64,000 bases of DNA from Methylomonas sp. ZR1 (lineage in GTDB: Bacteria > Pseudomonadota > Gammaproteobacteria > Methylococcales > Methylomonadaceae): NCBI RefSeq assembly GCF_013141865.1, contig NZ_RCST01000001.1, forward strand, positions 2,790,001 through 2,854,000, written 5' to 3'. The notes under the pieces are model-generated. The model worked only from the letters and a program-made list of their open reading frames with translations, was not told where the DNA came from and made no database searches. Below, one piece after another: positions 39,749 through 61,956 of this stretch (within the stretch, counting starts at the first letter, position 1; each line of letters begins with the position of its first letter). The translations under genes and the position numbers were made by a program.

Positions 39749-40303
39749 ATGATTAAACAATCTGTTCTTGCCATGGCTTTGCTATCGGCAATTTGTACGC
39801 AAGCCGAGGCGGTTACTCTCAATGCCGACGGCGCTTGGCATGCGTTTGACGTAGACAACTCAGTATCTAACTCGGGTGGTTTGGAGTGGATAGACCTGGA
39901 TAACAATGCGTTGAGCTTTGACTTTACCTTAACCGGCTCGGCGGTTTTGCGCGTAGTGGACGCCGGCTTCGCTGGTGATAGATTCAAGATTTTTAACACG
40001 GCCAGCGTAATCGGTGAAACCTCGGCCGCCGTTAACAATTATCCAACTTCTGTTTACAGCGATTTTGACTTGGCTTACGCCAGCTCAGACTACAGCCGCG
40101 GCGAATTTCTGCTGGGTGCCGGCAGTTACCAAATCAGCGGCCTGCTGATCCAATCCGCTCTGGATGATACCTCCACCGAGCTTAACGCCACCGTAGGCGC
40201 TGTCAGTCTGACCGCCGTGCCGCTGCCTGCCGCTGCCGGTTTATATGCCGCCGGGGCCGGCCTGCTGGGCTTGGTCTCTCGTCGCCGCAAATCCACTAAA
40301 TAA
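39749..40303 (+). CDS. Small exosortase-sorted (VPLPA/PEP-CTERM) protein
   Basis: Exported protein of 184 residues. Signal peptide about 1-21 (MIKQSVLAMALLSAICTQAEA), a beta-rich domain (about 25-150) of unknown fold, and a C-terminal sorting signal VPLPAAAGLYAAGAGLLGL followed by VSRRRKSTK. The motif, helix and Arg cluster are those of exosortase substrates in biofilm-forming proteobacteria. It is the first gene of the Pho-box operon and precedes the 5'-nucleotidase by 11 bp. Its biochemical role is unknown. A binding or anchoring partner for the nucleotidase is one idea. Confidence 0.82.
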   Translation: MIKQSVLAMALLSAICTQAEAVTLNADGAWHAFDVDNSVSNSGGLEWIDLDNNALSFDFTLTGSAVLRVVDAGFAGDRFKIFNTASVIGETSAAVNNYPTSVYSDFDLAYASSDYSRGEFLLGAGSYQISGLLIQSALDDTSTELNATVGAVSLTAVPLPAAAGLYAAGAGLLGLVSRRRKSTK

Positions 40304-40314
40304 GGGTTAAACCA

Positions 40315-42090
40315 ATGAAATTAAACAAACTTGCCATCGGCATTGCCTTGGGTTTGGGCACACTGGGCGCGGCCAATGCCTTGACCACCATCCCCACCAC
40401 CACGATTAAAATCGTCGCGTTCAACGACTTTCACGGCCAACTGGAATCGCCGGGTACCTTCCGGCAAACACCCACCAGCGCGGCAGCCACCAATATTCCG
40501 GTCGGCGGCGTGGACTGGATGGCCGGCTATATCAACGAATTGAAAAACCAAAACCCGAGCACTGTGGTGGTATCGGCAGGCGACATCATCGGCGCCACGC
40601 CGCTGGTTTCCGCGTTGTTTCACGACGAACCGACCATCGAAACCATGAATCGCCTGGGTCTGGAATTTAATGCGGTCGGCAATCACGAGTTCGACGAAGG
40701 CAAGAACGAACTGAAACGCATGCAAAACGGCGGCTGCCATCCGACCGATCCCAATTCCTGTCAAGGCGCATCCGTCGGCACGCCGGTGCCTTTTGAAGGC
40801 GCTGATTTCAAATTTCTGGCCGCCAACGTAGTCGAAACCGCCACCGGCAAAACCTTGTTTCCGCAATACGCGATCAAAGTGGTCGGCGGCGTGCGGGTCG
40901 GCTTTATCGGCATGACCTTAAAAGAAACCCCCACCATCGTCACCCCCACCGGCGTGGCCGGCCTGGAGTTCAAAGACGAAGCAGCAACCGTGAATGCGTT
41001 GATTCCGAAATTGCGGGCGCGCGGTGTGGAAGCGGTGGTGGTGTTGATTCACCAAGGCGGCACGATACCGGTCACCCAAAGCAAATCTACCATCAACAAC
41101 TGCGATGGCGGTTTGGACGGTTCGCCGATTAAAACCATCGTCAACCAATTGGACGACGAAGTGGATTTGGTGATTTCCGGCCACACGCATCAAGCCTATA
41201 ACTGCCAAATCGCCAACAAGGCCGGCCGCTTGATTTCGGTGACCAGCGCCAATTCGCAAGGCCGGGTATTAACCGACATCGACGTGGCCATCAATACCGC
41301 CAACGGTGAAGTCAGTAGCGTCAGCGCCGAAAACATCGTGGTTGATCGCAGCAACACCGCCATCACGCCCAACGCGGCGATTAAAACCATCGTCGATAAT
41401 TACAAAGCCCTGTCTACTCCCATCGCTAATCGGGTGATCGGCAGCATCAGCGCGGCGATTACCCGAACCACCACCGCAGCCGGCGAATCGGCCTTGGGCG
41501 ACGTGATTGCGGACGCGCAATTGCTGGCTACGCAAAACGTCGGTTTTGGCGAAGCCGTGGTGTCATTCATGAACCCCGGCGGCATCCGCGCCGATTTGAC
41601 CTTCCCATCCAGCGCCGCTAACGAAGGCGACGGCAAGGTAACTTATGCGGAAGCCTTTACCGTGCAACCGTTCGGCAACACCTTGGTGACATTGACCTTG
41701 ACCGGCGCGCAAATCCACACTTTGTTGGAGCAACAATTCACCGGTTGCACAGTCGGCTATCCAGCCGGCGCACCGGCTACCGGCCAAGCGTTCAACCGCA
41801 TCATGCAAGTTTCCAACGGCTTCAGTTACGAGTGGAAGGAAAAAGGCACGGCTTGCGATAACGTCGATCCCGCCAGCATCAAAATCAACGGTGTAGTGGT
41901 AGACCCTGCCGCCAGCTACCGGGTTACCGTGAATAACTTCATGGCCGACGGCGGCGATCAATATTACGTGCTCACACAAGGCACTAACCGCCTGGGCGGC
42001 GCGTTGGATCTGGATGCGTTGGAAAACTACTTTACCGTCAATGGTACTGTAGCCCCCGGCCCGCAAAATCGGATTTTGCCGGCTCCGTAA
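40315..42090 (+). CDS. UshA-type metallophosphatase/5'-nucleotidase
   Basis: Periplasmic or surface enzyme releasing phosphate from nucleotides, 591 residues with signal peptide MKLNKLAIGIALGLGTLGAANA. The metallophosphatase domain shows the dimetal ligands in VAFNDFHGQLE, AGDIIGATPL, GNHEFDEG and SGHTHQAYNC. The C-terminal nucleotidase domain (about 370-590) has FMNPGGIRADL and the substrate-stacking region near FNRIMQVSNGFSYEW. No exosortase tail is present, in contrast to its operon partner. Co-transcribed behind a Pho box, so probably induced by phosphate starvation. Confidence 0.92.
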   Translation: MKLNKLAIGIALGLGTLGAANALTTIPTTTIKIVAFNDFHGQLESPGTFRQTPTSAAATNIPVGGVDWMAGYINELKNQNPSTVVVSAGDIIGATPLVSALFHDEPTIETMNRLGLEFNAVGNHEFDEGKNELKRMQNGGCHPTDPNSCQGASVGTPVPFEGADFKFLAANVVETATGKTLFPQYAIKVVGGVRVGFIGMTLKETPTIVTPTGVAGLEFKDEAATVNALIPKLRARGVEAVVVLIHQGGTIPVTQSKSTINNCDGGLDGSPIKTIVNQLDDEVDLVISGHTHQAYNCQIANKAGRLISVTSANSQGRVLTDIDVAINTANGEVSSVSAENIVVDRSNTAITPNAAIKTIVDNYKALSTPIANRVIGSISAAITRTTTAAGESALGDVIADAQLLATQNVGFGEAVVSFMNPGGIRADLTFPSSAANEGDGKVTYAEAFTVQPFGNTLVTLTLTGAQIHTLLEQQFTGCTVGYPAGAPATGQAFNRIMQVSNGFSYEWKEKGTACDNVDPASIKINGVVVDPAASYRVTVNNFMADGGDQYYVLTQGTNRLGGALDLDALENYFTVNGTVAPGPQNRILPAP

Positions 42091-42129
42091 GTTTTAGGGA
42101 TTAGTTGTAAGCTCTGTAGTGGTACTCGG

Positions 42130-42163
42130 GCCCGCTGGTACGCGATACAGCGGGCTTTTTTTT
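42130..42163 (+). terminator. Rho-independent terminator after the nucleotidase gene
   Basis: Arms GCCCGCTG and CAGCGGGC with a 10-nt loop, followed by eight T. A textbook intrinsic terminator, 40 bp after the stop. Confidence 0.9.
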
Positions 42164-42181
42164 GCCTGACGGATCTAGCGC

Positions 42182-42925: not shown

Positions 42926-43006
42926 GGATCCTGCACTTTAGCGGTATTCAAAAAAATGTAATTATTCAGTGAATTGCAAAACTCTGACAATTGCCGAGAA
43001 ATTGCT

Positions 43007-43111: not shown

Positions 43112-43128
43112 TTCGCAGTGAATAATTC

Positions 43129-43160
43129 CAAAAAATCAGGGACGGCCAGCGTCCCTGATT
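43129..43160 (-). terminator. Rho-independent terminator of phoA
   Basis: On the minus strand AATCAGGGAC and GTCCCTGATT form a 10-bp stem with a 7-nt loop, followed by a T run (TTTTTTGG). It lies 24 bp after the phoA stop. Confidence 0.88.
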
Positions 43161-43183: not shown

Positions 43184-44797
43184 CTATTTACGCATGCCTA
43201 GCGCATCCGCCATCACATGATAAATCACGTTTTGTTCCAGCGTACCGCGTACTAGATAAGCGCCAGGGCCGTCGGCATAGATAGCCACGTCTTCGCCGGC
43301 GTGGGTTTCCGCGCTCATCGGTACGGTGGCTTCCTGCATGTAGTTCGGATTGGCGGTATCGACCGCTGTCAAATCCGGACGCAGTTTACTACCCTCGTAG
43401 GCAGCAGCGACGGTACCTTCGTTGGCAGGATTAAATTCCTTGCGTTGCAAGCCACCGGTCCAGCCTGGGCCGTTAGCATAGGTCAGCGTGGTGTAAGGCA
43501 AACCTAAAGAATCTTTAGTAACAACGCCGTCTACAGCGGTTTTACCCAGGATAGGATTGCCGCGCGAGGGGTAACCGGCGATGGTGAACACATGGCTGTG
43601 ATCGGCAGTAACCAGGATCAAGGTGTCTTCGTCGCGGGTCAGTTGTCTGGCTTTTTTCACCGCATCCGACAGCGCCACGGTATCGGTTAGCGCCCGGTAG
43701 GCATTGCCGGCGTGATGAGCATGGTCGATCCGGCCGGCTTCCACCATCAAGTAATAACCTTTGCGGTTTTTTTCCAGAATTTTGATGGCTTTTTCGGTCA
43801 TCTCGGTCAAGGACGGTTCACCGGCGGCGTCTTGCGCGCGGTCGGCTTCATAGCGCATGTGCGAACGTTCGAACAAACCCAACAAATGATCGGTAGACGC
43901 CGGATTTACCGCGTCGAACTGGGCTTTGTTCCAGACGTAGTCGGAATTATTGTATTGCGATGTCCACTCCAAGGTCAGATCGCGGCCATCGGCGCGGCGA
44001 CCTTTTTGGGTTGGGTATTCAGGGTCGGCAACGTTATTAGGCATGAAATAGCTACGACCACCGCCCAAAGCCACTTCCAGGCCGTCGCCGTAAGGAAACT
44101 CCAGCAACTGGCGAGCAATATCCTTCACGGTGGCGCCAGCAGGCAGGTTGCTGTCGGCTTCCCAATCGCGGTTGGAAATGTGGGCGTAATTCACGGCAGG
44201 CGTGGCGTGGGTAAAACGGGCGGTTGTGACGACACCGGTGGACATGCCGCGTTCCTCGGCGCGTTCCAGGATGGTTTTCACGCTTTTTGCGGCGGTGACT
44301 TCCGCGCTAGGTTCGGTACGGTTGATGCTTTGATCGACGGAAATAGCACCGTCGTTGGTTTTGACACCGGCCACCATCGCGGTAGCGGTAGGCGCGGAAT
44401 CCGAGGTTTGTTGATTGGCGCTGGCAGTAACCGAAAACGCCAGATTATTAAATTTTTCAAAGCCCAAACGGTTGAACTCCCCATCGCGTCCGGCCATTTG
44501 GCCTTCCAAAATCCGCGCGGCGGTGACGGTGGATACGCCCATGCCGTCGCCGACGAACAAGATAACGTTTTTGGCTTTGCGCAGTTGTGCTACATCGCGT
44601 TTATTGACCAACACCGCAGCCTCACCGGCTTTGAACCATTCAGCGCCGGATGTCGGTACTTGGCTGGTTTGTGCAGGTTTATGAGAATCGTGATGATCGC
44701 GGTCGGCATGGTCGTGGGCGACTGCGGCTACCGACAAGGTAAAACCGAAGGCGCCGACAGCGACTGCCGCCAGTTTTTGTGGATGTGTTTTTTTCAT
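43184..44797 (-). CDS. phoA: PhoA-family alkaline phosphatase
   Basis: Exported phosphomonoesterase with 537 residues from ATG 44797. A longer frame from 44833 lacks a ribosome site. Signal peptide about 1-28 (ending VAAVA), then a His/Asp-rich linker HDHADRDHHDSHKP. The nucleophile Ser is in TSDSAPTATAM, and Zn/Mg ligands are seen in FVGDGMGVSTV, GRIDHAHHAGNA, LVTADHSHVF and AETHAGEDVAIYA. No exosortase tail, so probably soluble periplasmic or released. A Pho box is just upstream (44846-44863). Confidence 0.94.
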   Translation of the reverse strand: MKKTHPQKLAAVAVGAFGFTLSVAAVAHDHADRDHHDSHKPAQTSQVPTSGAEWFKAGEAAVLVNKRDVAQLRKAKNVILFVGDGMGVSTVTAARILEGQMAGRDGEFNRLGFEKFNNLAFSVTASANQQTSDSAPTATAMVAGVKTNDGAISVDQSINRTEPSAEVTAAKSVKTILERAEERGMSTGVVTTARFTHATPAVNYAHISNRDWEADSNLPAGATVKDIARQLLEFPYGDGLEVALGGGRSYFMPNNVADPEYPTQKGRRADGRDLTLEWTSQYNNSDYVWNKAQFDAVNPASTDHLLGLFERSHMRYEADRAQDAAGEPSLTEMTEKAIKILEKNRKGYYLMVEAGRIDHAHHAGNAYRALTDTVALSDAVKKARQLTRDEDTLILVTADHSHVFTIAGYPSRGNPILGKTAVDGVVTKDSLGLPYTTLTYANGPGWTGGLQRKEFNPANEGTVAAAYEGSKLRPDLTAVDTANPNYMQEATVPMSAETHAGEDVAIYADGPGAYLVRGTLEQNVIYHVMADALGMRK

Positions 44798-44845
44798 GTG
44801 TTGCCCCGAGAGCGGTTGATGGAGCGGCAACATTAGCGATTGAAT

Positions 44846-44863
44846 ATGACAAGCGCGTTACGG
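44846..44863 (-). promoter_or_regulatory. Pho box upstream of phoA
   Basis: On the coding strand CCGTAAC-N4-TTGTCAT, an 11-bp-period pair close to the PhoB consensus (CTGTCAT), located 49 bp before the phoA start. Nearly the same pair occurs before the gene at 45028-46668. Confidence 0.6.
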
Positions 44864-45027: not shown

Positions 45028-46668
45028 TTACTGTTTACGGCCGCGTTGCATTCCCATCAAGCCCACCAGCGCGGAACCGAACAACCAAACCGCGCCCGGT
45101 ACCGGCACGGCCGATACTTTGTACAGCGAAGTGGTTTCACTTACCTCGTTGGCCACCGCCAGGTAACTGCCCTGGGCATTGCTGAAGAAACTCAGACCCT
45201 CGGGACCGATGTCGCCGCCGGTAAACAACATGTCCAAAAATTTCGGACTGTTCAGGTCAGTCAAATCCCAGACCATCACCGCATTAGAACGCTCCAAACC
45301 CAGGAACAATAAATCCCGGCCATCCACTTTACCCACTACGGCACTTTCCGGCTCAGGACCTTTGTTGTCGCTACGGCCATCGTCCCACAAGGCCTCGTAA
45401 GCCGCATTACCGGGATTCGCCGCGATCAGCGCTTTGATGGTTTGTTCCAGTTTGTCACCGGAATCGAACACCATGGCACCATTGGCATCCAGAATCGAGA
45501 ACGAGCGGGCGCCGAAGACTTGCAGTTGATCCAGGTCACCGTCGTTGTCCAAATCCCCGCTCCTGGAAACCGTTAGTCGATTCAGCTTGTCATTGTTCGT
45601 GGCCCAATCCGGTCCGTGCAAGGCTGTCATGGTGGCATTCAAGGCGGGATCGATAGTCGCTGCGCCCACCCGCACTTCTTCCGCACCGCCCGGCCAATCC
45701 TCGCGAGAGTCGCCTTCATTGGCGGTCACGTAATATTGATTGCCGTCTTTGCTAAAACTGGCGATGCCGTCGGGCATGTACATACCCATCACATTCCAGT
45801 TCTGGATATTGCCTTTCAAAGCCGCAGTGCCGGCACCGTCGCGATCCGAGACATCCAGACCGTTGCCGGCTAAATTGTGATCCTTCAAACCCAGGGCTTT
45901 AATGTCGGTGACTGTGGCGCTGGCGATGTCGATGACCGCAACCGAGTTGGCCTCTTGCAGCGTCGCAAAAGCTTTGCTGCCGTCTTGGCTAACCGCAATG
46001 TATTCCGGTTCCAGATCTTGCGCGACGCTGGCGTTCGGCCCGGTCAGACGCACGCCGCTGGCTTTCAAAGCCGCCGCCGCACCGTTGAAAGCAGTAAATC
46101 CGGCCGTTTGGACGGCAAAGCTGTTGGTGTTGATAATACTCACCGAGCCTTCCGGATCGCCGCTTGGCCCCACCAAATAGCTGCTGGGTTCGCCTTCATT
46201 CGCCACCAGCAAGCGGCTGCCGTCGGGCGTATATGTCACTGCGTCAGGGTTGGCACCGACGGTTACGCTGTGTTGCAATGTGTAGTCAGCCGCATTGTAA
46301 AAACGCACCAAACCCGGATCGGTTTTCGTCGGCGCCGTCAAAGCAATGGCCGCTTGGCCGTTTTTCACCGCCACGCTGTTGATTCCGCCGAACGCGCTCG
46401 TGGAAATGCTTTGCAGCAAATTGCCGTTCATATCCAACACGTCGATGCCGCCTTGGCCAATATTGGCCTGATTGGCATCGGTTCCCGCTACCCACAAGCG
46501 GTTGTTAACCGCATCGAAAGAGACGATTTCCGAGCCCATGGCACTGGAACCATTCGCTGCAGTGTGATTGAAGGTCCATTGATGCGACCATTGAAAATCC
46601 CCCGCAGCGCTGGCATTGGCAGAGGCCAGCACAGCAGCGACGGCGGCGGCGATTGAAGTGAGTTTCAT
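45028..46668 (-). CDS. Choice-of-anchor-I-like beta-propeller, exosortase-sorted
   Basis: Exported 546-residue protein. Signal peptide about 1-22 (ending NASA), then a beta-propeller-like domain typical of the choice-of-anchor I family (related to so-called alkaline-phosphatase-like surface proteins): PDGSRLLVANEGEPSSY, LEPEYIAVSQDGSKAFATL, YYVTANEGDSREDW and LLFLGLERSNAVMVWDL. A D-x-D-x-D-x-x-x-D metal loop is seen in DLDNDGDLDQL. C-terminal sorting signal VPVPGAVWLFGSALVGL plus MQRGRKQ. AGGAGC precedes the ATG. A Pho box upstream suggests a role in phosphate acquisition, perhaps phytate- or ester-hydrolysing, but activity is not proven. Confidence 0.85.
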   Translation of the reverse strand: MKLTSIAAAVAAVLASANASAAGDFQWSHQWTFNHTAANGSSAMGSEIVSFDAVNNRLWVAGTDANQANIGQGGIDVLDMNGNLLQSISTSAFGGINSVAVKNGQAAIALTAPTKTDPGLVRFYNAADYTLQHSVTVGANPDAVTYTPDGSRLLVANEGEPSSYLVGPSGDPEGSVSIINTNSFAVQTAGFTAFNGAAAALKASGVRLTGPNASVAQDLEPEYIAVSQDGSKAFATLQEANSVAVIDIASATVTDIKALGLKDHNLAGNGLDVSDRDGAGTAALKGNIQNWNVMGMYMPDGIASFSKDGNQYYVTANEGDSREDWPGGAEEVRVGAATIDPALNATMTALHGPDWATNNDKLNRLTVSRSGDLDNDGDLDQLQVFGARSFSILDANGAMVFDSGDKLEQTIKALIAANPGNAAYEALWDDGRSDNKGPEPESAVVGKVDGRDLLFLGLERSNAVMVWDLTDLNSPKFLDMLFTGGDIGPEGLSFFSNAQGSYLAVANEVSETTSLYKVSAVPVPGAVWLFGSALVGLMGMQRGRKQ

Positions 46669-46776
46669 AAAAATGCTCCTGAGGCACTATTCGTTTGGTG
46701 TTTGAAGAAAGGATGTGTAAGTACCAGCTCACCGACAGCGTCGGAACGGTAGTCTTGCGAATGGTAAATAGCCTTT

Positions 46777-46794
46777 ATGACAGTAGCGTTACGC
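46777..46794 (-). promoter_or_regulatory. Pho box upstream of the choice-of-anchor-I-like gene
   Basis: Coding strand GCGTAAC-N4-CTGTCAT, the second unit a perfect match to the PhoB consensus. It is 109 bp upstream of the ATG, and the pair is almost identical to the phoA box. Confidence 0.6.
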
Positions 46795-46864: not shown

Positions 46865-47217
46865 ATAAAACTGCTGTTATCGCACTGGCCGCATTGGCCC
46901 AAGAATCCCGTCTGGCAATTTACCGCGCGCTGGTGCAAGCCGGCCCGGCAGGTTTGGCCGCCGGAAAAATCAGTGAAGCCACCGGCATTGCCCCGTCTTC
47001 CCTATCGTTTCATTTGAAGGAATTGACTTACGCCAACCTGGTGAACTCGCGCAACGAAAGCCGCTTTGTGATTTATACGGCCAATTTTTCCGCGATGAAC
47101 GATCTGTTGGCTTTCCTGACTGAGAACTGTTGCGACGGCCATCCCTGTCTATCGCTCTCTGCCTGTTCCACCAATAACGAATCTTTACCCTCAACCCCGA
47201 CCGACACTCCATCATGA
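46858..47217 (+). CDS. arsR: ArsR-family arsenite-responsive repressor
   Basis: Winged-helix metalloregulator of 119 residues that releases its operator on binding As(III). The helix-turn-helix region has AALAQESRLAIYRAL and GIAPSSLSFHLKELTYANLV. Candidate As(III) ligands are at the C-terminus, in ENCCDGHPCLSLSACS, which places the thiols after the DNA-binding core instead of in the ELCVCDL loop of the classical E. coli type. The gene overlaps arsC by 4 bp (ATGA). Confidence 0.92.
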   Translation: MENKTAVIALAALAQESRLAIYRALVQAGPAGLAAGKISEATGIAPSSLSFHLKELTYANLVNSRNESRFVIYTANFSAMNDLLAFLTENCCDGHPCLSLSACSTNNESLPSTPTDTPS

Positions 47218-47693
47218 ACGTATTGTTTTTGTGTACCGGCAACTCCTGCCGTTCCGTCCTTGGCGAAGCCACTTTCAATCATTTGGCTCCGGCCGGCTGG
47301 CGTGGCCTGAGCGCCGGCAGCAAACCCACCGGTAAAATTCATCCGCGTTCGCTGGCTTTGCTGGCCAGAGAAGGCATATCCACCGAGGGTTATTACAGCA
47401 AGTCCTGGAATGACCTGCCGGTGACGCCGGACATCGTGCTGAGTGTGTGCGGCAATGCCGCCAACGAAACCTGCCCCGCCTACCTGGGCCCGGTCATGCG
47501 CAGCCATTGGGGCGTTGAAGATCCGGCTCACGTCGAGGGTACCGACGAGGAAATCGACGCGGCCTTCATGGTCGCGTATCGGATTCTGCGCCATCGCATC
47601 GAGCAGTTTTTTGCTTTACCGTTGGAAGAGTTAAAAAACGATCCCGAGCGCCTGAAAGCCGAACTGGATCGCATCGGCACCTTGTTGCCTTAG
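47214..47693 (+). CDS. arsC: Arsenate reductase, LMW-phosphatase fold
   Basis: Reduces arsenate to arsenite for export. The 159 residues carry the phosphatase P-loop CTGNSCRSVLGE at 8-19 and redox cysteine partners in VLSVCGNAANETCPAYLG, the Cys-relay pattern of thioredoxin-linked ArsC. Overlap with arsR by 4 bp indicates translational coupling. It supplies arsenite to the ArsD-ArsA/Acr3 route encoded downstream. Confidence 0.94.
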   Translation: MNVLFLCTGNSCRSVLGEATFNHLAPAGWRGLSAGSKPTGKIHPRSLALLAREGISTEGYYSKSWNDLPVTPDIVLSVCGNAANETCPAYLGPVMRSHWGVEDPAHVEGTDEEIDAAFMVAYRILRHRIEQFFALPLEELKNDPERLKAELDRIGTLLP

Positions 47694-47711
47694 TTGTTAA
47701 GGAGTTCTCCC

Positions 47712-48068
47712 ATGACCAGTATTCAAATATTTGATCCTGCATTGTGTTGCAGCACCGGTGTTTGCGGTGTGGAAGTCGATCAGCAGTTAGTGGGTTTTGC
47801 CGCCGATGTCGATTGGGCCAAGCAAAACGGCGCCGCCATTGAGCGCTTCAATCTGGCGCAAACCCCGTTGGCGTTTGCCGAAAACCCGGTGGTTAAAGCG
47901 TTTCTGGAACGCTCCGGCGCCGATGCCTTGCCGTTGGTCTTGGTCGATGGCGAAGTCGCCTTAGCCGGTCGCTATCCGAATCGAACCGAATTGGCGCGTT
48001 GGGCAGCCATTAGCGTAGCGGAACAGCAAGCCCCGTCGGGCTGTTGTAGCGGCAGCAGCTGTTGTTAA
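47712..48068 (+). CDS. arsD: ArsD, arsenite metallochaperone
   Basis: Delivers As(III) to the ArsA ATPase. From ATG 47712 (TAAGGAG upstream) it has 118 residues. The arsenite-binding thiols are visible as DPALCCSTGVCGVEVD (Cys12-13 and 18 in E. coli numbering), and the C-terminal CCSGSSCC gives two more vicinal pairs. The frame overlaps the longest form of arsA. Confidence 0.93.
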   Translation: MTSIQIFDPALCCSTGVCGVEVDQQLVGFAADVDWAKQNGAAIERFNLAQTPLAFAENPVVKAFLERSGADALPLVLVDGEVALAGRYPNRTELARWAAISVAEQQAPSGCCSGSSCC

Positions 48069-48085
48069 CTTCTGGTGATCGTGCC

Positions 48086-49885: not shown

Positions 49886-49887
49886 AG

Positions 49888-49962
49888 GAGAAGGTTGAGA
49901 TGAGGGGATTAAAATCAGTTATTTACATCCCTCACCCTAGCCCTCTCCCTGAGGGAGAGGGA
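49888..49962. repeat. Dispersed palindromic repeat in the ars operon
   Basis: Contains CCCTCACCCTAGCCCTCTCC...GGAGAGGGA at 49929-49962, preceded by an inverted half GGTTGAGATGAGGGG at 49892-49906. It is the same family as at 43007-43111, here sitting in the 151-bp arsA-arsI gap. Confidence 0.7.
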
Positions 49963-50036
49963 ATTTTCAGAGGTCCCCACTAAACAATGCTAGCTAATCT
50001 CCAATCTCATTCACTATTTACCCCGGAGCAAACGCG

Positions 50037-50483: not shown

Positions 50484-50504
50484 ATCGCTGATTTGGAGAT
50501 TTAA

Positions 50505-52579: not shown

Positions 52580-54361
52580 ATGAATAGTTTTATTCGATCC
52601 GTACTTGCAGAGGCGGACTATAAACCAGAAAGGCTCTTGCAGATGCTAAGGGCCGTGCAGGCGCAGTACCTGCATATTCCCAACGCGGCTATCGAACAAT
52701 TGGCCGCAGCCCTGCATATTCCCCGTACGCAGATTATTGCCGTCGCGGAATTCTATAGTTTCTTGCACCTGACACCACAGGGCCGTTACGACATTCATAT
52801 CAGCGATTCGATTACCGACCGGATGCTAGGCAAGGAAAAATTGTTGAACTACCTGGCGGAAAAATTGCGGGTTAACGTGGGTGAAGTCCGCGCGGACGGT
52901 CTGGTCAGTTTGAATAATACCTCCTGCACCGGCATGTGCGACCAAGGCCCGGCCGGTTTGGTTAACGGCTATGCGTTGACCCGTCTGGACCCTGCCAGAA
53001 TCGATGTCATCGCCAAACTGATCGAACAACAAGCGCCGTTAAGCGATTGGCCACCGGAGTTCTTTGCGGTGGAAGAGCCGGTCCGCAAACCCGGCCTGTT
53101 GCTCAACCAGCCATTCGAAAACGGCGCGGCGATAAGGGCGACCTTTGCCCGCGGCCTGACGGAAACCCTGGCGGAAGTGGACAGTTCCAATCTGCGCGGC
53201 CGCGGCGGCGCGGGCTTTAAAACCGCGTTGAAATGGCGGACCTGCGCTCAACAAACTGCCACACCGCACTACGTGATTTGTAACGCCGACGAGGGCGAAC
53301 CCGGTACCTTTAAAGACCGAATGCTGCTCGATCTGTATGCCGACCAAGTATTTGAAGGCATGACCTTGTGCGCGGCGATTATTGGTTCGGACCAGGGCTT
53401 GCTGTATCTGCGCGCCGAGTATTTATTCCTCTACGAACAATTACAACGGGTGTTGAAACGCCGCCGCGATAGCGGTTTGCTGGGGCGCAATATTCTCGGT
53501 CACGACGGCTTTGATTTTGACATCGAAATCCGCATGGGCGCCGGTGCCTATATTTGCGGCGAGGCATCCGCGCAAATCGAGTCCTTGGAAGGCAAACCCG
53601 GCATACCGCGGGTTAAGCCGCCCAACTCGGTGATCTGCGGCTATCAACGCAAACCCACCGTGGTAGACAATGTCGAGACGTTTTTCGCCGCCACTCACAT
53701 TGCTGTACAAGGCGGGTCATGGTTTGCGGAAGTCGGCACCGCACAATCCACCGGCAGCAAACTGCTCAGCATCAGCGGCGACTGCGCGCGGCCTGGCATT
53801 TACGAATACCCGTTCGGCACGTCAATTGAAGAGATTTTGCAAGACTGCGGCGCGGACGACGTCATGGGTGTGCAAGTCGGCGGGCCGTCCGGCACTTTTA
53901 TTTCCAATCGGGAATTGCAACGGCGCATAGCCTTCGAGGACCTATCCACCGCCGGCTCGTTTATGGTGTTCAACAACAGCCGCAATATTTTCGACATCGT
54001 GCAAAATTTCACTGATTTCTTCGCCCATGAAAGCTGCGGCTTTTGCACACCGTGCCGGGTCGGCACCACACTGTTGAAAAATCAGCTGCGGAAAATTGTC
54101 GAAGGCAACGGCGCTGCGGTCGACCTGGAAGAACTCAACGAGATATGCCTGGTCGTCAAAAACAACAGCCATTGCGGTTTGGGGGATTCAGCAGCCAATC
54201 CAATTTTAAGCACCCTGGCCAGCTATCCCGAGCTGTATCTTAAGCAATTAAAGCAGAGCAGTTTTACCCCGGGTTTTGACTTGGACGCCACCCTGGCCGT
54301 GGCTCGCCGCATGGCGCAGCGCGACGACGACGCGGCGCATTTATCGCAAGTGGAGAATTGA
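52580..54361 (+). CDS. hoxF: HoxF, diaphorase subunit of NAD-reducing hydrogenase
   Basis: Transfers electrons between the Fe-S chain and NAD. The 593 residues comprise an N-terminal NuoE/HoxE-like domain (about 1-155) and a NuoF-like part. FMN/NADH motifs are RGRGGAGFKTALKW and GAGAYICGEASAQIESLEG, and the 4Fe-4S site is ESCGFCTPCRVGT with a distal CGLGDSA. In the HoxE-like part only one Cys pair (NTSCTGMCDQG) remains; the usual upstream pair is absent (HISDSITDRML), so a complete N1a-type 2Fe-2S site is not expected. Operon order hoxF-U-Y-H-W, with hoxU starting two bases after this stop. Confidence 0.93.
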   Translation: MNSFIRSVLAEADYKPERLLQMLRAVQAQYLHIPNAAIEQLAAALHIPRTQIIAVAEFYSFLHLTPQGRYDIHISDSITDRMLGKEKLLNYLAEKLRVNVGEVRADGLVSLNNTSCTGMCDQGPAGLVNGYALTRLDPARIDVIAKLIEQQAPLSDWPPEFFAVEEPVRKPGLLLNQPFENGAAIRATFARGLTETLAEVDSSNLRGRGGAGFKTALKWRTCAQQTATPHYVICNADEGEPGTFKDRMLLDLYADQVFEGMTLCAAIIGSDQGLLYLRAEYLFLYEQLQRVLKRRRDSGLLGRNILGHDGFDFDIEIRMGAGAYICGEASAQIESLEGKPGIPRVKPPNSVICGYQRKPTVVDNVETFFAATHIAVQGGSWFAEVGTAQSTGSKLLSISGDCARPGIYEYPFGTSIEEILQDCGADDVMGVQVGGPSGTFISNRELQRRIAFEDLSTAGSFMVFNNSRNIFDIVQNFTDFFAHESCGFCTPCRVGTTLLKNQLRKIVEGNGAAVDLEELNEICLVVKNNSHCGLGDSAANPILSTLASYPELYLKQLKQSSFTPGFDLDATLAVARRMAQRDDDAAHLSQVEN

Positions 54362-54362
54362 T

Positions 54363-55202
54363 ATGAGCGGCACTCTTTGTATCGACGGCATCGCCGTTCC
54401 GTTCAGCGACGGCCAAACTATTATCGAAGCAGCCCGCACCGCCGGCGTTTACATTCCTTATCTGTGCCACCGGCCGGGTTACGCCCCTTACGGCAGTTGC
54501 AAACTGTGTACGGTGAAAGTCAATGGCCGCACCAATACCGCCTGCACCCTGCCGGCCGCCGACGGCCAAACCGTCATCAGCAACAGCCCCGACCTGCAAC
54601 ACGACCGCCAGCGCATCACCCAAATGCTGTTTGTGGAAGGCAACCATTTCTGCCCATCCTGCGAAAAATCCGGCAATTGCCAGTTGCAGGCCGTCGCCTA
54701 CCATCAGAACATGCTGGATAACCACTACCCGCATTTTTATGCACAGCGCGAAATGGACGCCTCGCACCCGGATATTTTGATCGATCACGACCGCTGCATT
54801 TTCTGCAATTTATGCGTGCGCGCCAGCAAGGAAAAAGACGGGAAAGACGTATTCGGCATCGCCGGGCGCGGCATCCACAAACGCCTGGTCATCAACTCGC
54901 CTAGCGGCAAGCTGAAAGACAGCGAGATTAGTGTCGATGACGAGGCCGCCCATGTCTGCCCGACCGGCGCGATTCTGGTCAAACGCAGCGCCTATCTGGC
55001 ACCGATTGGTGAACGCATCTACGACGGGCATCCCATCAGCGAAGTCGCCTGCGAAAAAGCGGTTATCAAAGCCGGCGAGGCCAGCGGCTACCCAAGCTGC
55101 GACCCGACCAAGCTGGCGGAGTCAGCTCAGCAGAACGGTGGCCCGGACTCCCACTACGCGGCGACCATGCCGCCCGCTCCGGACATCAAACATGGCCGCT
55201 AA
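54363..55202 (+). CDS. hoxU: HoxU, Fe-S subunit of the hydrogenase diaphorase module
   Basis: NuoG-N-terminal-like ferredoxin subunit of 279 residues. 2Fe-2S ligands in PYLCHRPGYAPYGSCKLC and ACTLP, a His/Cys 4Fe-4S site in GNHFCPSCEKSGNCQL, and a second 4Fe-4S in DRCIFCNLCVRAS with the distal Cys in HVCPTGAI. Total length and cluster set match R. eutropha-type HoxU, with an extended C-terminus of about 45 residues. The start ATG 54363 lies two bases past hoxF. Confidence 0.93.
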   Translation: MSGTLCIDGIAVPFSDGQTIIEAARTAGVYIPYLCHRPGYAPYGSCKLCTVKVNGRTNTACTLPAADGQTVISNSPDLQHDRQRITQMLFVEGNHFCPSCEKSGNCQLQAVAYHQNMLDNHYPHFYAQREMDASHPDILIDHDRCIFCNLCVRASKEKDGKDVFGIAGRGIHKRLVINSPSGKLKDSEISVDDEAAHVCPTGAILVKRSAYLAPIGERIYDGHPISEVACEKAVIKAGEASGYPSCDPTKLAESAQQNGGPDSHYAATMPPAPDIKHGR

Positions 55203-55731
55203 GATTAAAATCGCCACCACCTCGCTGGCCGGCTGCTTTGGCTGCCATATGTCGTTTCTGGATATAGACGAGCGCCTCTTGAAATTGGCTGACAGCGTCG
55301 AATTCGACCGCTCGCCACTCACCGACATCGAACACTGCGGCCCGTGCGACATCGGCCTGATCGAAGGCGGGGTTTGCAATTCCGAAAACGTGCATGTGCT
55401 GCGCGAGTTTCGCGCTAACTGCAAAATTCTGATCGCCGTCGGCGCTTGCGCCATCAACGGCGGCCTACCGGCGCTGCGCAACTTTTTTAAGCTGGAAGAT
55501 TGCTTGTTGGAAGCGTACCAGGACGGCATCGGCGTGGACAATCCGCAGATACCCAGCGACCCGGAATTGCCTTTGCTACTGGACAAGGTGCGGCCGGTCC
55601 ACGAGATCGTCAAGATCGATTATTTTATGCCCGGCTGTCCGCCGTCCGCCGATGTGTTTTGGCACTACCTGAGCGCATTGATCGAAGGCCGCGACCCGAC
55701 TTTACCTTACGAGTTAGTCCATTACGACTAA
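55192..55731 (+). CDS. hoxY: HoxY, small subunit of NAD-reducing [NiFe]-hydrogenase
   Basis: Binds the proximal 4Fe-4S cluster. ATG 55192 overlaps the hoxU end by 11 bp and gives 179 residues with no Tat signal, so the enzyme is cytoplasmic. Ligands appear in LAGCFGCHMSFLD, HCGPCDIGLIEG, AVGACAINGG and PGCPPSADVFWHYL. All four cluster cysteines of the soluble (SH-type) family are in place. Confidence 0.94.
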   Translation: MAAKIKIATTSLAGCFGCHMSFLDIDERLLKLADSVEFDRSPLTDIEHCGPCDIGLIEGGVCNSENVHVLREFRANCKILIAVGACAINGGLPALRNFFKLEDCLLEAYQDGIGVDNPQIPSDPELPLLLDKVRPVHEIVKIDYFMPGCPPSADVFWHYLSALIEGRDPTLPYELVHYD

Positions 55732-55743
55732 CGGAGGAACCCC

Positions 55744-57255
55744 GTGTACGAATATCTTGAAACCGCCGATCCGGCCTTGGTCGAAGCCGGCAAGTTAAAA
55801 CGGGTCGCTGTCGATCCGGTTTCCCGCGTGGAAGGCCACGGCAAAGTCACACTGCTGTTGGATGAAAACAATCAAGTCAAGCAAGCCCGGCTACACATTG
55901 TCGAATTTCGCGGCTTTGAAAAATTCATCCAGGGCCGTCCTTACTGGGAACTACCGGTCATGGTGCAGCGCTTGTGCGGCATCTGCCCGGTCAGTCATCA
56001 TCTGGCCGCCGCCAAAGCCATCGACCAGTTGGTGGGCGTCGATCCGGCCAATCTGCCGCCGGCAGCAGACAAGTTGCGGCGCTTGCTGCATTTCGGTCAG
56101 GTGTTGCAATCGCATGCCTTGCATTTTTTCCACCTGTCCAGCCCGGATTTGCTGTTCGGATTCGAAAGCGAGATCGGCAAACGCAACATCGTCGCCGTGT
56201 TGGCGGATTATCCGGATATTGGCCTGCAAGGCGTGAAACTGCGCAAATACGGCCAGGAAGTGATCCGCATGGTCTGCGGCAAGCGCATTCACGGCACCGG
56301 CGCGATTCCTGGCGGCATGAACAAAGCGCTGAGCAAAGATGAGCGCGATTATCTGAAACAAGACATCGGCCAAATCGTGAGTTGGGCGCAAGGCGCTTTG
56401 CAACTGGTCACAAAAGTCCACACCTCCAACCAGCCCTATTACGACGACTTTGCCACCATCCGCAGCAACTACCTGAGTTTGACCAAGCCTGATGGTGCGC
56501 TGGAGCTTTATCACGGCGGGATTAGGGTGAAGAACCCGCTAGGCGACACCCTCGTGGATCATTACGATTACTGCGACTATCCGGACTTGATCCGAGAAGA
56601 AGTCCGTTCCTGGACTTATATGAAATTCCCCTACCTGACGGCGCAGGGTAAAGCCGACGGCTGGTATCGGGTGGGACCGTTGGCGCGGGTCAACAATTGC
56701 GATTTTATCGACACGCCACTGGCGGAAGCCGCGCGCGTCGAATTCAAGCAACACGGCGACGCAGCCATGGTTCACAGCACCCTGGCTTTTCACTGGACGC
56801 GGATGATCGAATTACTGCATTGCGCGGAAAGTATCCAAATCTTGCTGGATGATCCTGACCTGCTGAGTAACGACTTGGTCGCCAAAGGCGAAAAACGTTA
56901 CGAAGGCATCGGCGTGATCGAAGCGCCGCGCGGCACCCTGTTTCATCATTATCAAATCGACGAAAACGACATTGTCACCAAAGCCAATCTGATCGTCTCC
57001 ACCACCAGCAACAACACGGCGATGAACGAGTCGGTGCGGCAAGTCGCGGCGGAATATCTGTCCGGCCGCGAATTGACCGAACCCTTGCTGAATAATCTGG
57101 AAGTGGCAATCCGCGCCTACGACCCGTGTCTGTCCTGCGCCACGCATGCGGTCGGCAAAATGCCCTTGCAGTTGGAATTGGTCGACGCGGACGGCAAGTT
57201 GGTGGATAAACTGGTGCGACACAGCAGCGGCGAATTCATTCACGGTAGCGAATGA
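55744..57255 (+). CDS. hoxH: HoxH, catalytic NiFe subunit of NAD-reducing hydrogenase
   Basis: Holds the NiFe(CN)2CO site. GTG start at 55744, 503 residues. Nickel ligands are in the N-terminal RLCGICPVSHH and the C-terminal DPCLSCATHA motifs. Residues after the terminal His (about 35, AVGKMPLQLEL onwards) form the extension normally removed by an endopeptidase, and hoxW for that step overlaps the stop by 4 bp. The extension is longer than the 24 residues of R. eutropha HoxH. No hyp maturation genes are in the window. Confidence 0.95.
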   Translation: MYEYLETADPALVEAGKLKRVAVDPVSRVEGHGKVTLLLDENNQVKQARLHIVEFRGFEKFIQGRPYWELPVMVQRLCGICPVSHHLAAAKAIDQLVGVDPANLPPAADKLRRLLHFGQVLQSHALHFFHLSSPDLLFGFESEIGKRNIVAVLADYPDIGLQGVKLRKYGQEVIRMVCGKRIHGTGAIPGGMNKALSKDERDYLKQDIGQIVSWAQGALQLVTKVHTSNQPYYDDFATIRSNYLSLTKPDGALELYHGGIRVKNPLGDTLVDHYDYCDYPDLIREEVRSWTYMKFPYLTAQGKADGWYRVGPLARVNNCDFIDTPLAEAARVEFKQHGDAAMVHSTLAFHWTRMIELLHCAESIQILLDDPDLLSNDLVAKGEKRYEGIGVIEAPRGTLFHHYQIDENDIVTKANLIVSTTSNNTAMNESVRQVAAEYLSGRELTEPLLNNLEVAIRAYDPCLSCATHAVGKMPLQLELVDADGKLVDKLVRHSSGEFIHGSE

Positions 57256-57701
57256 CAAAACCCATCCTGGTGTTCGGTTACGGCAACCCCAGCCGTGGCG
57301 ATGATGCTGTTGGTCCTTTGCTGTTGGATTATCTCGCCGAGCATCTGGACCTCAGCAATATCGAATTGCTCAGCGATTTTCAGTTACAAATCGAACATGC
57401 GCTGGATATACAAGACCGCGAATGGGTAGTGTTTGTCGATGCAGCCGTAGATTGCCCGGACAGCTTTACCTTTACCCCATTAACCCCAGCCCAAGACCAC
57501 AGTTACTCCAGCCATGCGCTGAGCCCGACCGCGCTGCTGTCGGTCTATGAAACCCTCGGCAAACAGCCGCTACCGCCCTGCTATTTATTAAGCATTCAAG
57601 CTGAAGCCTTCGAACTGGGCTGCGGGTTAAGCGAACGCTGCGCTGCCAACTTAGCGGAGGCCTGCCGGTTTATAGCGGCGTTTTTGAAACAAAGGCCGTA
57701 A
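57252..57701 (+). CDS. hoxW: HoxW-like hydrogenase maturation endopeptidase
   Basis: Nickel-dependent protease (HycI/HoxW family) that trims the HoxH C-terminus after metal insertion. The 149 residues start VFGYGNPSRGDDAVGP, with the metal-binding Glu/Asp and His candidates in VFVDAAVDC and SSHALSPTALL. Overlap with hoxH by 4 bp indicates translational coupling and closes the operon. Confidence 0.9.
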   Translation: MTKPILVFGYGNPSRGDDAVGPLLLDYLAEHLDLSNIELLSDFQLQIEHALDIQDREWVVFVDAAVDCPDSFTFTPLTPAQDHSYSSHALSPTALLSVYETLGKQPLPPCYLLSIQAEAFELGCGLSERCAANLAEACRFIAAFLKQRP

Positions 57702-57758: not shown

Positions 57759-58925
57759 CTAGCGCGATGCCCGGAATTTTCGGCTTCCCAATAGCCCGAG
57801 TAGACCGCTGCCAAACAACCAGACCGCTGCAGGCAGCGGAACGGGGGCCGCTAAAGGCGTCATTTTGAAAGCACTACCACTTCCGGTAAACGTTAAACCG
57901 GTAACAAAACCCAGCGGATCGCTGGGATCGATCATGGCGGAAGTTTCGATGCCGGCTATGCGGAACTTGCCAACGCCGTTTTGAAAACCCAATTCGCCGA
58001 AATTAAACCAAACGCCCGCCAACAAGCGGATACCGCTGTCGACGTATTCACCGCTGGTCTCATCCCAAATCAGCAGTTGGAATTTACCGTCGCCGTATTG
58101 GTTGGGAATCATCACATCGCCGAATAAGGTGTCGGCATTTAACGCTTCATAGGTGTAAGCCACCGCCACATCCGGGTCGTAAAACCCGCCTGGTTTTGGA
58201 TTTCCGTTGCCATCCAAAACCGGCATGGGCGGTGTACTGAATGTAAATCCATCGTTGCTTGGTGTTGGTAAAACCGGTGCGGAAGGCAATGCAACCTGAG
58301 ACGTTGGCGTGCTGACATTAAAGGTATCGATCAGGCCGCTAATACGAAAATCCAATAAACCGTTGGTGACTTTGTTGATGGAATAACCAAATTTAAGTGG
58401 CTGCGACTGGAATATGCTGTTTAAGTCTTCGGTTTGAAACGAAGCAATATTGAAGCGAGATGGATCGAATAATGCTGTAATGGAAAACTCGGTTCCAGTA
58501 ACAGTTTGCTCGTCATTGCCAAGGTTAATCGCCTCGAAAGAGACTACGTCGTAATTTCCCGCATTTACATAGCCGTGATAACCGTTTACATCGATCTCAG
58601 TTTGGGTGATGTTTTGATTGTCTTGAAATGCAGCCCCAATACCTTTATTGCTAACAAAAGAAAACTTATTTTGAATTGCCGTGGACAGATAAGTATTGTT
58701 CCAAAAACCACTTTCCCATTCGGTATAAGGCGGAGTGGCCGGATTAAAATGGCTACCATCCGGTTGATCGGGATTGAACAAAAACTGGCCCGAGAACGAA
58801 TCGCCAATATTCGCCACATTGCCGTCGCTAAAAATAATATGGCCTTTATAGGAAATTTGCTGGGTGGCGTGAGCGTTAACCGAGGCAAGACACAACCAGA
58901 GTAAACCGAAGGTTTTTATTTTCAT
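57759..58925 (-). CDS. Exosortase-sorted (VPLPA-CTERM) secreted protein
   Basis: Exported protein of 388 residues, family not otherwise known. Signal peptide about 1-20 (ending NAHA), a beta-rich body with several Asn/Gly loops, and the C-terminal sorting signal VPLPAAVWLFGSGLLGLLG followed by SRKFRASR. The tail is nearly the same as those at 45028 and 60169. No hydrolase motif is visible, and no Pho box was found upstream, so it may be a structural or binding component of the extracellular matrix. Confidence 0.82.
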   Translation of the reverse strand: MKIKTFGLLWLCLASVNAHATQQISYKGHIIFSDGNVANIGDSFSGQFLFNPDQPDGSHFNPATPPYTEWESGFWNNTYLSTAIQNKFSFVSNKGIGAAFQDNQNITQTEIDVNGYHGYVNAGNYDVVSFEAINLGNDEQTVTGTEFSITALFDPSRFNIASFQTEDLNSIFQSQPLKFGYSINKVTNGLLDFRISGLIDTFNVSTPTSQVALPSAPVLPTPSNDGFTFSTPPMPVLDGNGNPKPGGFYDPDVAVAYTYEALNADTLFGDVMIPNQYGDGKFQLLIWDETSGEYVDSGIRLLAGVWFNFGELGFQNGVGKFRIAGIETSAMIDPSDPLGFVTGLTFTGSGSAFKMTPLAAPVPLPAAVWLFGSGLLGLLGSRKFRASR

Positions 58926-59036
58926 GATAATCTCCAGACTAACGTGGATTTATGAGTGTCAAAAAGCGGGTGGTTTGACCACTTTTCCACAGCCGTACTG
59001 ACTTGGCTTGAGTAAGTAAGAGGCCAAACCGTCCAA

Positions 59037-59945: not shown

Positions 59946-60168
59946 GCTAAATTTCGAGTCTAATTACAAGACTGAGCCCCAAATATATACAGACAAAACA
60001 TTAAGACCATATCGCCGAGGCATCCGCGCCAGCAGTCAATCCACCACCGCATGTGCTTCGATACACTAGGCCCCAGCAAAACAGCTGATGTTCTGCGAAA
60101 AACCTCAATCCGCAGTTGCTGTTGCAGATAATGCGGCAACTGACAGACATCCCCTGCCGACCACTTAA

Positions 60169-61956
60169 CTAGGCTTTTTTGCGTTTGCCAAACGCCAGAC
60201 CCAATAAAGAGCTACCAAACAACCAGGCCGCGCCGGGAACCGGTACGGGTTGTACGGAGCTTGGCGTGATTCTGAACTGGCTGACGATTTGTGGCGTGCG
60301 GTTGACGATGCCGCTCAAATCGTTGGCAATATCGCCGACGTTGTAGGCGGGAATGCCATAGGTGGTGACCAGCAGTTGTTGAGTGACCTGATCGATTTCA
60401 AACTCGGTCCAGCCAAAGGTGTGCGTGGCGACGTAATCGCCTTGCAGCAATTCGGCCTGGATTTTGCCGTCGGCGCTAGCCAGATTGGCATCCAAGCCCA
60501 GCGGGTCGTAACCCAGCGGCGTCAAAGCGCCATTGGTTACCGACTTGATGAAACTGTCCTTGGCGGCAATGCTGGGCAATGTGTCGTAGAAGGCTTTTTG
60601 TTGCGGCGTCAATAAACCTACCGCGGCCGCCAATTGCGCGACTGTTGGGCCAAACGGCGCGTCATAGGCTACGGAACCGGTGGTGATTTCGAAGGCGTTG
60701 GTGGCTTTTTGCTCACCGAAGGGTGTGAGTTGATAAGTCAGGTTATTCACCAAAGTACCGTGAATATCGGCCGACAGGAACACCACGTTATCGATTTTGT
60801 TGTCGTCGATAAACTTCAGGATTTCGGTACGTTCGGCGGCATAGCCTTCAAAGCGGTCACCAGCGCCAACCACCCCCAGGTTTTGCATTGGCTCAGGGAC
60901 AGCGATAAATTTCCAGGTGACGTCATTTTGCTCCGCTGACAGCAGATCGGCTTTCAGGTCGGCGATTTGCTGCTTGCCCAGCATGGTCCGGCTCGGGTCG
61001 AACGAGTTGGCCAAAAAGCCGCCAACCGAAGCTTGGCTTAAAGGATTCGCATCGGCTAGTTCTTTGTCGCGAAACGAGCGCGCATCCAACACCATCAAGG
61101 CCGCATCGCTGCCGAAAGTTTGGTTGCGGTACAACTTGACTTCGCCGGCCGTGCGAATGTCGCCGGTGGCACCGTAAGTCTCGTTGCGAAGCGGATTGTA
61201 TTCCTGAAAAGCCTGGATACCGTTATTGTACAAGGTACTGTCATTGATCAAGGTGCCGGCCGGATCGGCATTGAAACGCGCGTCGGTCGAGACGTCGGCG
61301 CCGCCGGCGAAGTCGTTAGTCACTTCGTGGTCGTCTATCGTCGCGAATACGGCGGTGGATTGGCGCAGATCGGCCAAGCCGTTCATGCCACCCTTGGCGC
61401 TATACACTTCAGCATGTTTGTTGCGGTAGTCGGCCAGGGATTGCGCTTGTTGCTGACCGCCGTTGACGTTGGAGGCCACATCGCCGTAAATGGTATCGCC
61501 CATCGCCACAAAAAAATCCAGGTTTCGCTGGCTGGCGTTTTTCACGGCCGGATACGGCAGTAATTCACCGCGCCAATCGCCGGATACACCAAAGCGCAGA
61601 CCAGTGGTGTTACCCAATGCCGCGGCGGTTTTAAATTGGCCGCGTGCTATCGCACCAACGCTATCGATAGCACGATAGTAATAGGTAGTATCCGCGGACA
61701 AGCCCGAGACATCCCATTTGACCGGCGCCAGCGGGTCATTCACGGTCTTAAAGCTGGATCCGACATTCTGCGTAAAAGCGCTATCGGTCGCGTACTGGAA
61801 ATATAAATCACCGGCGGTATTGGACCTTCCCCACAGTACGGCGGAAGTTTGGCTGACGTCGCCCGCGGCCACGCCGTTGGGCAATGCCGCTTGCGCTTTA
61901 CCGCCCAGAGCGACCAGCGTCGCGACGGCGGTTAATCGAACTACTTTGAATTTCAT
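60169..61956 (-). CDS. phoD: PhoD-like alkaline phosphatase, exosortase-sorted
   Basis: Extracellular phosphodiesterase/phosphatase. ATG 61956 (TTGGAGACCC upstream) gives 595 residues; a longer frame reaches 62136. Signal peptide ends GKAQA. The N-terminal Ig-like domain of PhoD (LPNGVAAGDVSQTSAVLW, SADTTYYYRAI) is followed by the metallophosphatase core with metal motifs VSGDWRGE, FFVAMGDTIYGD, IDDHEVTNDF and FLSADIHGTLV. C-terminal sorting signal VPVPGAAWLFGSSLLGLA plus KRKKA replaces the Tat-exported form typical of B. subtilis. A Pho-like box is upstream (62025-62042). Confidence 0.92.
   Translation of the reverse strand: MKFKVVRLTAVATLVALGGKAQAALPNGVAAGDVSQTSAVLWGRSNTAGDLYFQYATDSAFTQNVGSSFKTVNDPLAPVKWDVSGLSADTTYYYRAIDSVGAIARGQFKTAAALGNTTGLRFGVSGDWRGELLPYPAVKNASQRNLDFFVAMGDTIYGDVASNVNGGQQQAQSLADYRNKHAEVYSAKGGMNGLADLRQSTAVFATIDDHEVTNDFAGGADVSTDARFNADPAGTLINDSTLYNNGIQAFQEYNPLRNETYGATGDIRTAGEVKLYRNQTFGSDAALMVLDARSFRDKELADANPLSQASVGGFLANSFDPSRTMLGKQQIADLKADLLSAEQNDVTWKFIAVPEPMQNLGVVGAGDRFEGYAAERTEILKFIDDNKIDNVVFLSADIHGTLVNNLTYQLTPFGEQKATNAFEITTGSVAYDAPFGPTVAQLAAAVGLLTPQQKAFYDTLPSIAAKDSFIKSVTNGALTPLGYDPLGLDANLASADGKIQAELLQGDYVATHTFGWTEFEIDQVTQQLLVTTYGIPAYNVGDIANDLSGIVNRTPQIVSQFRITPSSVQPVPVPGAAWLFGSSLLGLAFGKRKKA

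Follow-up and report, generated by a model that had tools for sequence, protein, structure and literature searches.

What joins a group of phosphatase genes to the exosortase sorting tails that some of them and their neighbours carry is the question raised by a 64,000-nucleotide stretch of Methylomonas sp. ZR1 (hereafter the window; C1:2790001-2854000, in an assembly of 5.18 Mb and two contigs). Our best explanation is that these genes probably form part of a Methylomonas island for extracellular phosphate scavenging under the control of PhoB, its products being built around XrtD (VPLPA-CTERM) cargo, with the tail either carried in cis or supplied in trans by a tailed partner. Behind this reading stand the exosortases XrtD and XrtA, conserved Pho boxes, the same island in six relatives, a Synechococcus fusion protein, a tailed PhoD that occurs only with XrtD, the pairing of nucleotidase and ExeM nuclease genes with tailed neighbours, and structural matches to cohesins. 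The window features concerned are:

39588-39631, + strand: Pho-box-like array of two adjacent, in-register 22-bp matches upstream of the 39749-40315 operon, score 7.2.
39749-40303, + strand: small FxDxF-like PEP-CTERM protein of 184 amino acids, tail at about 40217-40300, immediately 5′ of the nucleotidase gene; FxDxF-like only, as NF038126 gives 30.2 bits, under its cut-off of 50.
40315-42090, + strand: 5′-nucleotidase, untailed, 11 bp beyond the preceding tailed gene (PF02872 120 bits, PF00149 28.8 bits).
43184-44797, − strand: PhoA alkaline phosphatase, untailed (PF00245 440.6 bits); start set at 44797, the start in the open-reading-frame list being 44833.
44842-44863, − strand: Pho-box-like site upstream of phoA, score 5.9.
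45028-46668, − strand: choice-of-anchor I family beta-propeller, VPVPGAVWLFGS tail at about 45031-45108; passes NF038117 (489.7 bits, cut-off 300) and PF22494 (308.3 bits, cut-off 32).
46773-46794, − strand: Pho-box-like site upstream of the choice-of-anchor I gene, score 9.0.
57759-58925, − strand: tailed protein with no known domain, judged to lie outside the Pho set, tail at about 57762-57842.
60169-61953, − strand: PhoD-like phosphatase, VPVPGAAWLFGS tail at about 60172-60246; passes PF09423 (171.5 bits, cut-off 27); start better placed at 61953, the listed start at 62136 sitting upstream of the box.
62021-62042, − strand: Pho-box-like site upstream of phoD, score 7.5.

A preliminary description of the window had given the proteins at 39749, 45028, 57759 and 60169 a common tripartite tail, and direct reading bore this out: in each of the four, VP[LV]P is followed by a short helix and then, at the C-terminus, by an Arg/Lys cluster, and a signal peptide is recognised by eye at the other end. 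The 39749 tail is the weakest form (VPLPAAAGLYAAGAGLLGLVSRRRK, lacking WLFGS). TIGR03370 gives 16.5 bits to 39749 and 20.2 bits to 57759, both under its cut-off of 25.35, PF07589 gives 57759 19 bits (cut-off 20.7), and the tails of the choice-of-anchor I and PhoD-like proteins are matched only by other PEP-CTERM family models, the latter at 15.2 bits in the genome search. On sequence grounds the four tails are real VPLPA/PEP-CTERM signals, conservation in orthologues being stronger evidence than these sub-cut-off scores. Amongst the 37 genomes of the genus (this one and 36 others), the tail is kept in 14/14 choice-of-anchor I copies from 13 genomes and in 5/5 PhoD homologues. The exosortase machinery, which the preliminary description had left to be found elsewhere in the genome, is there: XrtD, the VPLPA-specific exosortase, scores 587.9 bits (cut-off 400) and XrtA 325.1 bits (cut-off 208), which excludes the objection that the genome lacks an exosortase, and the Cys, Arg and His residues that we take to be catalytic are present in both by eye.

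The tail of PhoD also varies with the exosortase across the family. PhoD was found in 21 of the 237 family genomes searched; six copies are tailed, 13 are not, and two (G042 and G047) have broken frames that leave the tail undeterminable. XrtD exceeds its cut-off in 6/6 genomes with a tailed PhoD, in 4/13 with an untailed one and in one of the two undeterminable cases (one-sided Fisher test for 6/6 against 4/13, about 0.008, calculated by hand with no tree and kinship ignored). As far as these sequences go, the PhoD tail is modular and is seen only where XrtD exists. That the tails are plain C-terminal membrane anchors in which no exosortase is involved would fit their sub-cut-off scores, and a helix with a basic cluster could hold an unprocessed protein in the inner membrane, but XrtD and XrtA both score far above their cut-offs and tailed PhoD keeps company only with XrtD, so we regard plain anchoring as highly improbable.

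Three of the tailed genes had also been placed behind a Pho box, a claim that stands or falls with the model used. Strict patterns, based on what we took to be the E. coli-like Pho consensus, did no better in the window than chance would, finding 3 sites where 5.07 were expected and 40 where 39.32 were, and the strict consensus gave 34 sites genome-wide against 32 in a reversed control. Its best genome sites nevertheless include pstS, the porin and plcP. With no excess in window or genome it was dropped in favour of a half-site model. The CTGTCAT repeat of the Pho consensus is confirmed in the accessible text of a Desulfovibrio regulator study. Upstream of pstS in the genus, the regions taken from 30 loci (out of 37 matches) contain 11-bp half-sites in a clean array, and a model was trained on 12 distinct pstS boxes together with the porin box. 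With it, the chance of a site as good per upstream region was 0.016 for 39749, 0.028 for phoA, 0.007 for choice-of-anchor I, 0.015 for phoD, 0.048 for a lipoprotein gene at 42182 and 0.19 for 57759 (score 0.7). Such single-genome scores are not decisive, so conservation amongst orthologues decides, measured as the mean best score (n including this genome's own copy) against 100 shuffles. None of the 100 shuffles reached the observed mean for plcP (mean 20.3, n = 8, z = 15.3), choice-of-anchor I (9.4, n = 13, z = 10.4), phoA (10.5, n = 7, z = 8.6), exeM (2.9, n = 23, z = 6.6), 39749 (7.2, n = 7, z = 5.5, the box being conserved in the seven loci compared) or phoD (9.6, n = 4, z = 5.4), these z-values being inflated by kinship as orthologues were shuffled independently. 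The 13 choice-of-anchor I copies span down to 67% identity, and six lie in fetched regions without any other tested gene; the block upstream of exeM is conserved by eye in most of the 23 aligned loci, its low score notwithstanding. The box of 42182 is marginal (1/100 shuffles reach its mean), and the same test gave no signal for the nucleotidase, the cohesin-like gene, arsC, hoxH, 57759, 59037 or xrtD. A Pho-like site before xrtD, scoring 7.8 here, was rejected, as the three other loci scored, of four fetched, give -0.7, 1.5 and -3.8. The claim of three boxed tailed genes hence holds under the trained model, for 39749, 45028 and 60169, and finds nothing in the strict patterns.

Further box-like sequences were seen beside these. 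Six relatives' loci (L081, L083-L086 and L088) carry a second, inverted Pho-box-like block (about CGTGACAGGCGTATGACAA) farther upstream of choice-of-anchor I, which perhaps serves a divergent gene. Just past the end of the window (L101:309-2434), eutB and eutC encode ethanolamine ammonia-lyase, and eutB is preceded by a strong Pho-box-like array, which scores 17.8 here and 20.1 in G003. Another box, scoring 12.8, precedes a gene at L101:4206, which is followed by an open-reading frame that looks by eye like a phosphate permease.

The same island is present in six relatives (G003, G012, G019, G020, G021 and G025), where the order runs plcP, exeM, a cohesin-like gene, the 39749 homologue, the nucleotidase, the 42182 homologue, phoA and choice-of-anchor I, with plcP of G025 falling outside the fetched stretch and choice-of-anchor I missing from G020 and G021. 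PhoD comes next in G012, G020 and G021, and the other three have no PhoD match. In this genome the plcP-exeM-cohesin part lies away from the window at C1:356 kb, and several transposase-like open-reading frames occupy window positions 34700-39100, just before 39749, where relatives hold plcP-exeM-cohesin, which suggests that the island has been rearranged here.

Two untailed enzymes of the island are encoded beside tailed proteins. The preliminary description had read PhoA and the nucleotidase as untailed, and direct reading agrees; the nucleotidase is found in 22 of the 37 genus genomes (one locus is a fragment) and none of the 21 full-length homologues has a tail. Directly 5′ of it, in 18 of these 21 loci, stands a tailed gene, of the FxDxF type in 17 (the window included) and cohesin-like in one (G013), and a box scoring at least 7.2 precedes this tailed partner gene in 13 of the 18. 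The FxDxF protein was considered as another cohesin and ruled out, its match to the cohesin-like profile covering the tail region only; in a control, the match of the cohesin at locus L217 to this profile was longer and took in the cohesin itself.

The second enzyme, the ExeM nuclease (NF033681 652.7 bits, cut-off 300), is also untailed. A dockerin-like module forms the C-terminal end of 23 of the 24 homologues, 19 of them recognised by script and 4 more by eye; the one without it is 49% identical. The gene that follows these dockerin-bearing exeM genes matches a cohesin-like profile in all 22 loci where it is visible, the 23rd lying at a contig end; as homologues of that very protein went into the profile, the match shows presence and not fold. 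Its tail reads VPxP in 20 of the 22, and VPLQ and LPLP in the other two. No Pfam match was obtained for this neighbour, and in the model of a 90% identical homologue the domain blocks have a predicted local distance difference test (pLDDT) score of 82-96 and the nine best PDB matches are all cohesin modules. The neighbour of exeM is thus predicted to be a cohesin with a sorting tail, and looks like a socket for the ExeM docking plug. The division proposed earlier, with tailed phosphatases anchored and untailed ones soluble, fails as stated; it is too simple, as two of the untailed enzymes, the nucleotidase and ExeM, have genes for tailed partners beside their own. PhoA has no tail, and no tailed partner of it was seen.

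Two more dockerin-like genes of this genome are followed by a cohesin-like neighbour with a VPLP tail, at L217:1148-3301 (C1:1122 kb) and L218:1348-3829 (5005 kb), one dockerin partner having BNR repeats and the other a putative immunoglobulin domain. Against PF00963 (cut-off 24.1) one of these cohesins passes at 39.5 bits and the other, at 17.5 bits, falls under; the dockerin-like ends are weak, the genome search giving 16.1 and 14.6 bits and hmmscan 12.6 bits and no match.

The tailed proteins at 60169 and 45028 had been credited with phosphatase-like or propeller domains, correctly: the first is PhoD-like, though under the cut-off of the NCBIfam equivalog NF058638 (106.1 against 1000), and the second is the choice-of-anchor I propeller. 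Of ten relatives of this PhoD found in named genomes, two are from Methylomonas (M. methanica R-45363 at 93% and M. koyamae SM2 at 91%); the remaining eight, of which six are cyanobacterial, show 48-60%. The six cyanobacterial matches lie in open-reading frames of 869 to 3200 amino acids (some cut by the locus end), of which three were scanned for domains: a Synechococcus CS-1332 protein of 2147 amino acids joins phytase-like, choice-of-anchor I, 5′-nucleotidase and PhoD domains, a Calothrix NIES-3974 protein joins endo/exonuclease, phytase-like and PhoD domains, and one from Calothrix CCALA 953 joins phytase-like repeats, phytase, PhoD and GDPD. The fusion ties the 45028 propeller to phosphate release, proving no activity thereby, and supports a common phosphate role for 45028 and 60169. 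The 45028 model is a beta-propeller (pLDDT 86) that Foldseek matches to many propellers, a phosphotriesterase propeller at rank 25; the only two solved chains matched by sequence are a surface-layer propeller and hydrazine synthase beta, and some sources label homologues '3-phytase' (annotation only). A PEP-CTERM domain is precomputed for 4 of the 120 listed PhoD homologues, in a search confined to similar lengths that leaves giant fusions outside its scope, and 105 plasmid records of PhoD, all under 60% identity and none covering 80% of the query, were uninformative.

These associations might be those of ordinary neighbours: PEP-CTERM proteins are numerous, a few may by chance be phosphatases in a Pho-regulated region, the untailed enzymes would then be periplasmic or free and their tailed neighbours would have unrelated roles. 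Genome-wide, TIGR03370 has 48 matches and PF07589 30 at E up to 10 (largely overlapping, the weakest doubtful), other clusters included, and the pairing of genes does not prove binding. The protein at 57759, counted in the preliminary description as the fourth tailed member of the phosphate set, is itself a boxless tailed neighbour: domain-library scans match its tail only, 31/100 shuffles reach its box score, and the only other fetched island region that has it, near PhoD, is that of G007, and it was rejected as a member. Several further results count against the PhoB-controlled XrtD-cargo reading. Single-genome box scores are modest, and of the 43 PEP-CTERM genes located in the genome (one unscored and three being window genes), one of the 39 others reaches 8.2, above 39749 and phoD; kinship raises the orthologue z-values, and the exeM box is weak in score. 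The set varies, with phoD in 5 of the 37 genus genomes and choice-of-anchor I in 13. For three of the 21 nucleotidases no tailed gene lies within 300 bp, and five of the 18 tailed partner genes have no good box. The ExeM dockerin type I match reaches 20.0 bits by hmmscan, under the cut-off of 22.9 (24.5 in the genome search), and the cohesin superposition is modest (first nine matches to the modelled homologue: template-modelling score to target 0.42-0.58, root-mean-square deviation 5.6-7.4). A tailed PhoX-like protein at C1:503 kb (L220:1122-2564; PF05787 55.8 bits) has no Pho box under the trained model, so the single regulator proposed earlier, which does fit phoA and the three tailed genes with their shared conserved boxes, does not span every tailed phosphatase-like protein. 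Against mere neighbourhood, however, box conservation is specific to phosphate genes, most loci of the genus keep nucleotidase and ExeM paired with tailed genes, even where the island is broken, and the cyanobacterial fusions join the same domains; we judge the ordinary-neighbour explanation unlikely, with some weight still to be given to it.

The tailed PhoX-like gene directly precedes another tailed gene. Within the window, arsenic-type genes (47214-51557) and a NAD-linked hydrogenase cluster (52580-57701) separate choice-of-anchor I from phoD, and no Pho boxes were seen before those genes of this stretch that were tested.

Under the PhoB-controlled reading, we infer the following course. 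Phosphate starvation would lead PhoB to bind the boxes of the 39749 operon, phoA, choice-of-anchor I and phoD and, elsewhere in the genome, those of plcP and exeM, and the proteins of the set would be exported by Sec. The choice-of-anchor I and PhoD proteins would each have their own tail cleaved by XrtD and then be handed to the envelope or the exopolysaccharide, the propeller contributing whatever activity it may have. The untailed nucleotidase would be held by the co-expressed small FxDxF protein, and ExeM, through its dockerin-like end, by the co-expressed tailed cohesin-like protein. More tentatively, and with the odds somewhat against it, XrtD-processed proteins may form a phosphate-starvation enzyme array on the surface or in the matrix, with ExeM docked by its dockerin into an exosortase-anchored cohesin and the nucleotidase onto the FxDxF protein. 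If true, such an array would be the Gram-negative equivalent of a cellulosome anchor, based on an exosortase and regulated by a nutrient, with separate proteins doing the work that a single giant fused enzyme does in some cyanobacteria. The Pho-regulated cargo could instead be sent into the exopolysaccharide or the medium, the tail being an export route and not an anchor; in the accessible texts, Haft 2006 proposes export to the exopolysaccharide layer, and in an Aquincola study PepA is proposed to exit the cell and join the extracellular matrix, but a cohesin-like partner would be easier to understand as a socket fixed in place, be it on the cell or in the matrix, and we hold this export-route reading to be improbable.

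The proposed PhoB-controlled island would matter for what it makes measurable. In the literature accessible to us, the regulation of PEP-CTERM proteins is that of sigma-54/PrsR and biofilm, and our search of it found no description of a Pho-regulated set of exosortase cargo, most subscription papers lying outside that search, so that absence is not proof. Conserved, Pho-boxed cargo of the phosphatase type would give exosortase work substrates that can be followed by their phosphatase, nucleotidase or nuclease activity and switched by phosphate. What cohesin-dockerin pairs do outside cellulosomes is called unknown by a review, in the part accessible; a nuclease with a dockerin-like module, encoded beside a tailed cohesin-like protein, suggests a function that can be tested.

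Compared with known systems, the tails belong to the PEP-CTERM/exosortase type, VPLPA-CTERM with XrtD (TIGR03370/TIGR04152), sharing the tail, the signal peptide and a matching exosortase. Published control of that system differs: Haft 2006 describes sigma-54 with PrsK/PrsR and a motif that precedes 99 of the 167 PEP-CTERM genes of proteobacteria, the words 'phosphatase' and 'phosphate' not occurring in its accessible text, and the Desulfovibrio study, likewise as far as accessible, puts PEP-CTERM targets under a regulator separate from the phosphate response, whereas conserved Pho boxes stand upstream here. The boxes resemble those of genus pstS in half-site and 11-bp phase, and the pstS, porin and plcP boxes are strong as in a Pho regulon, but members here have exosortase tails or tailed partners, and the boxes of the tailed genes score below those of pstS and plcP. 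ExeM is of the same family as the ExeM/NucH nucleases; those of Shewanella, in the text accessible, have a GlyGly-CTERM tail, which the dockerin-like module replaces here, a tailed gene coming after it. That module, beside a neighbour of predicted cohesin-like fold, recalls the cellulosomal and non-cellulosomal cohesin-dockerin pairs, from which this one differs in its Gram-negative setting, its nuclease cargo and an exosortase tail in place of a sortase or S-layer anchor. The multi-enzyme phosphate proteins of cyanobacteria, finally, combine PhoD with choice-of-anchor I, 5′-nucleotidase, phytase-like or nuclease domains in one giant polypeptide, whereas in Methylomonas the parts are separate proteins, tailed or paired.

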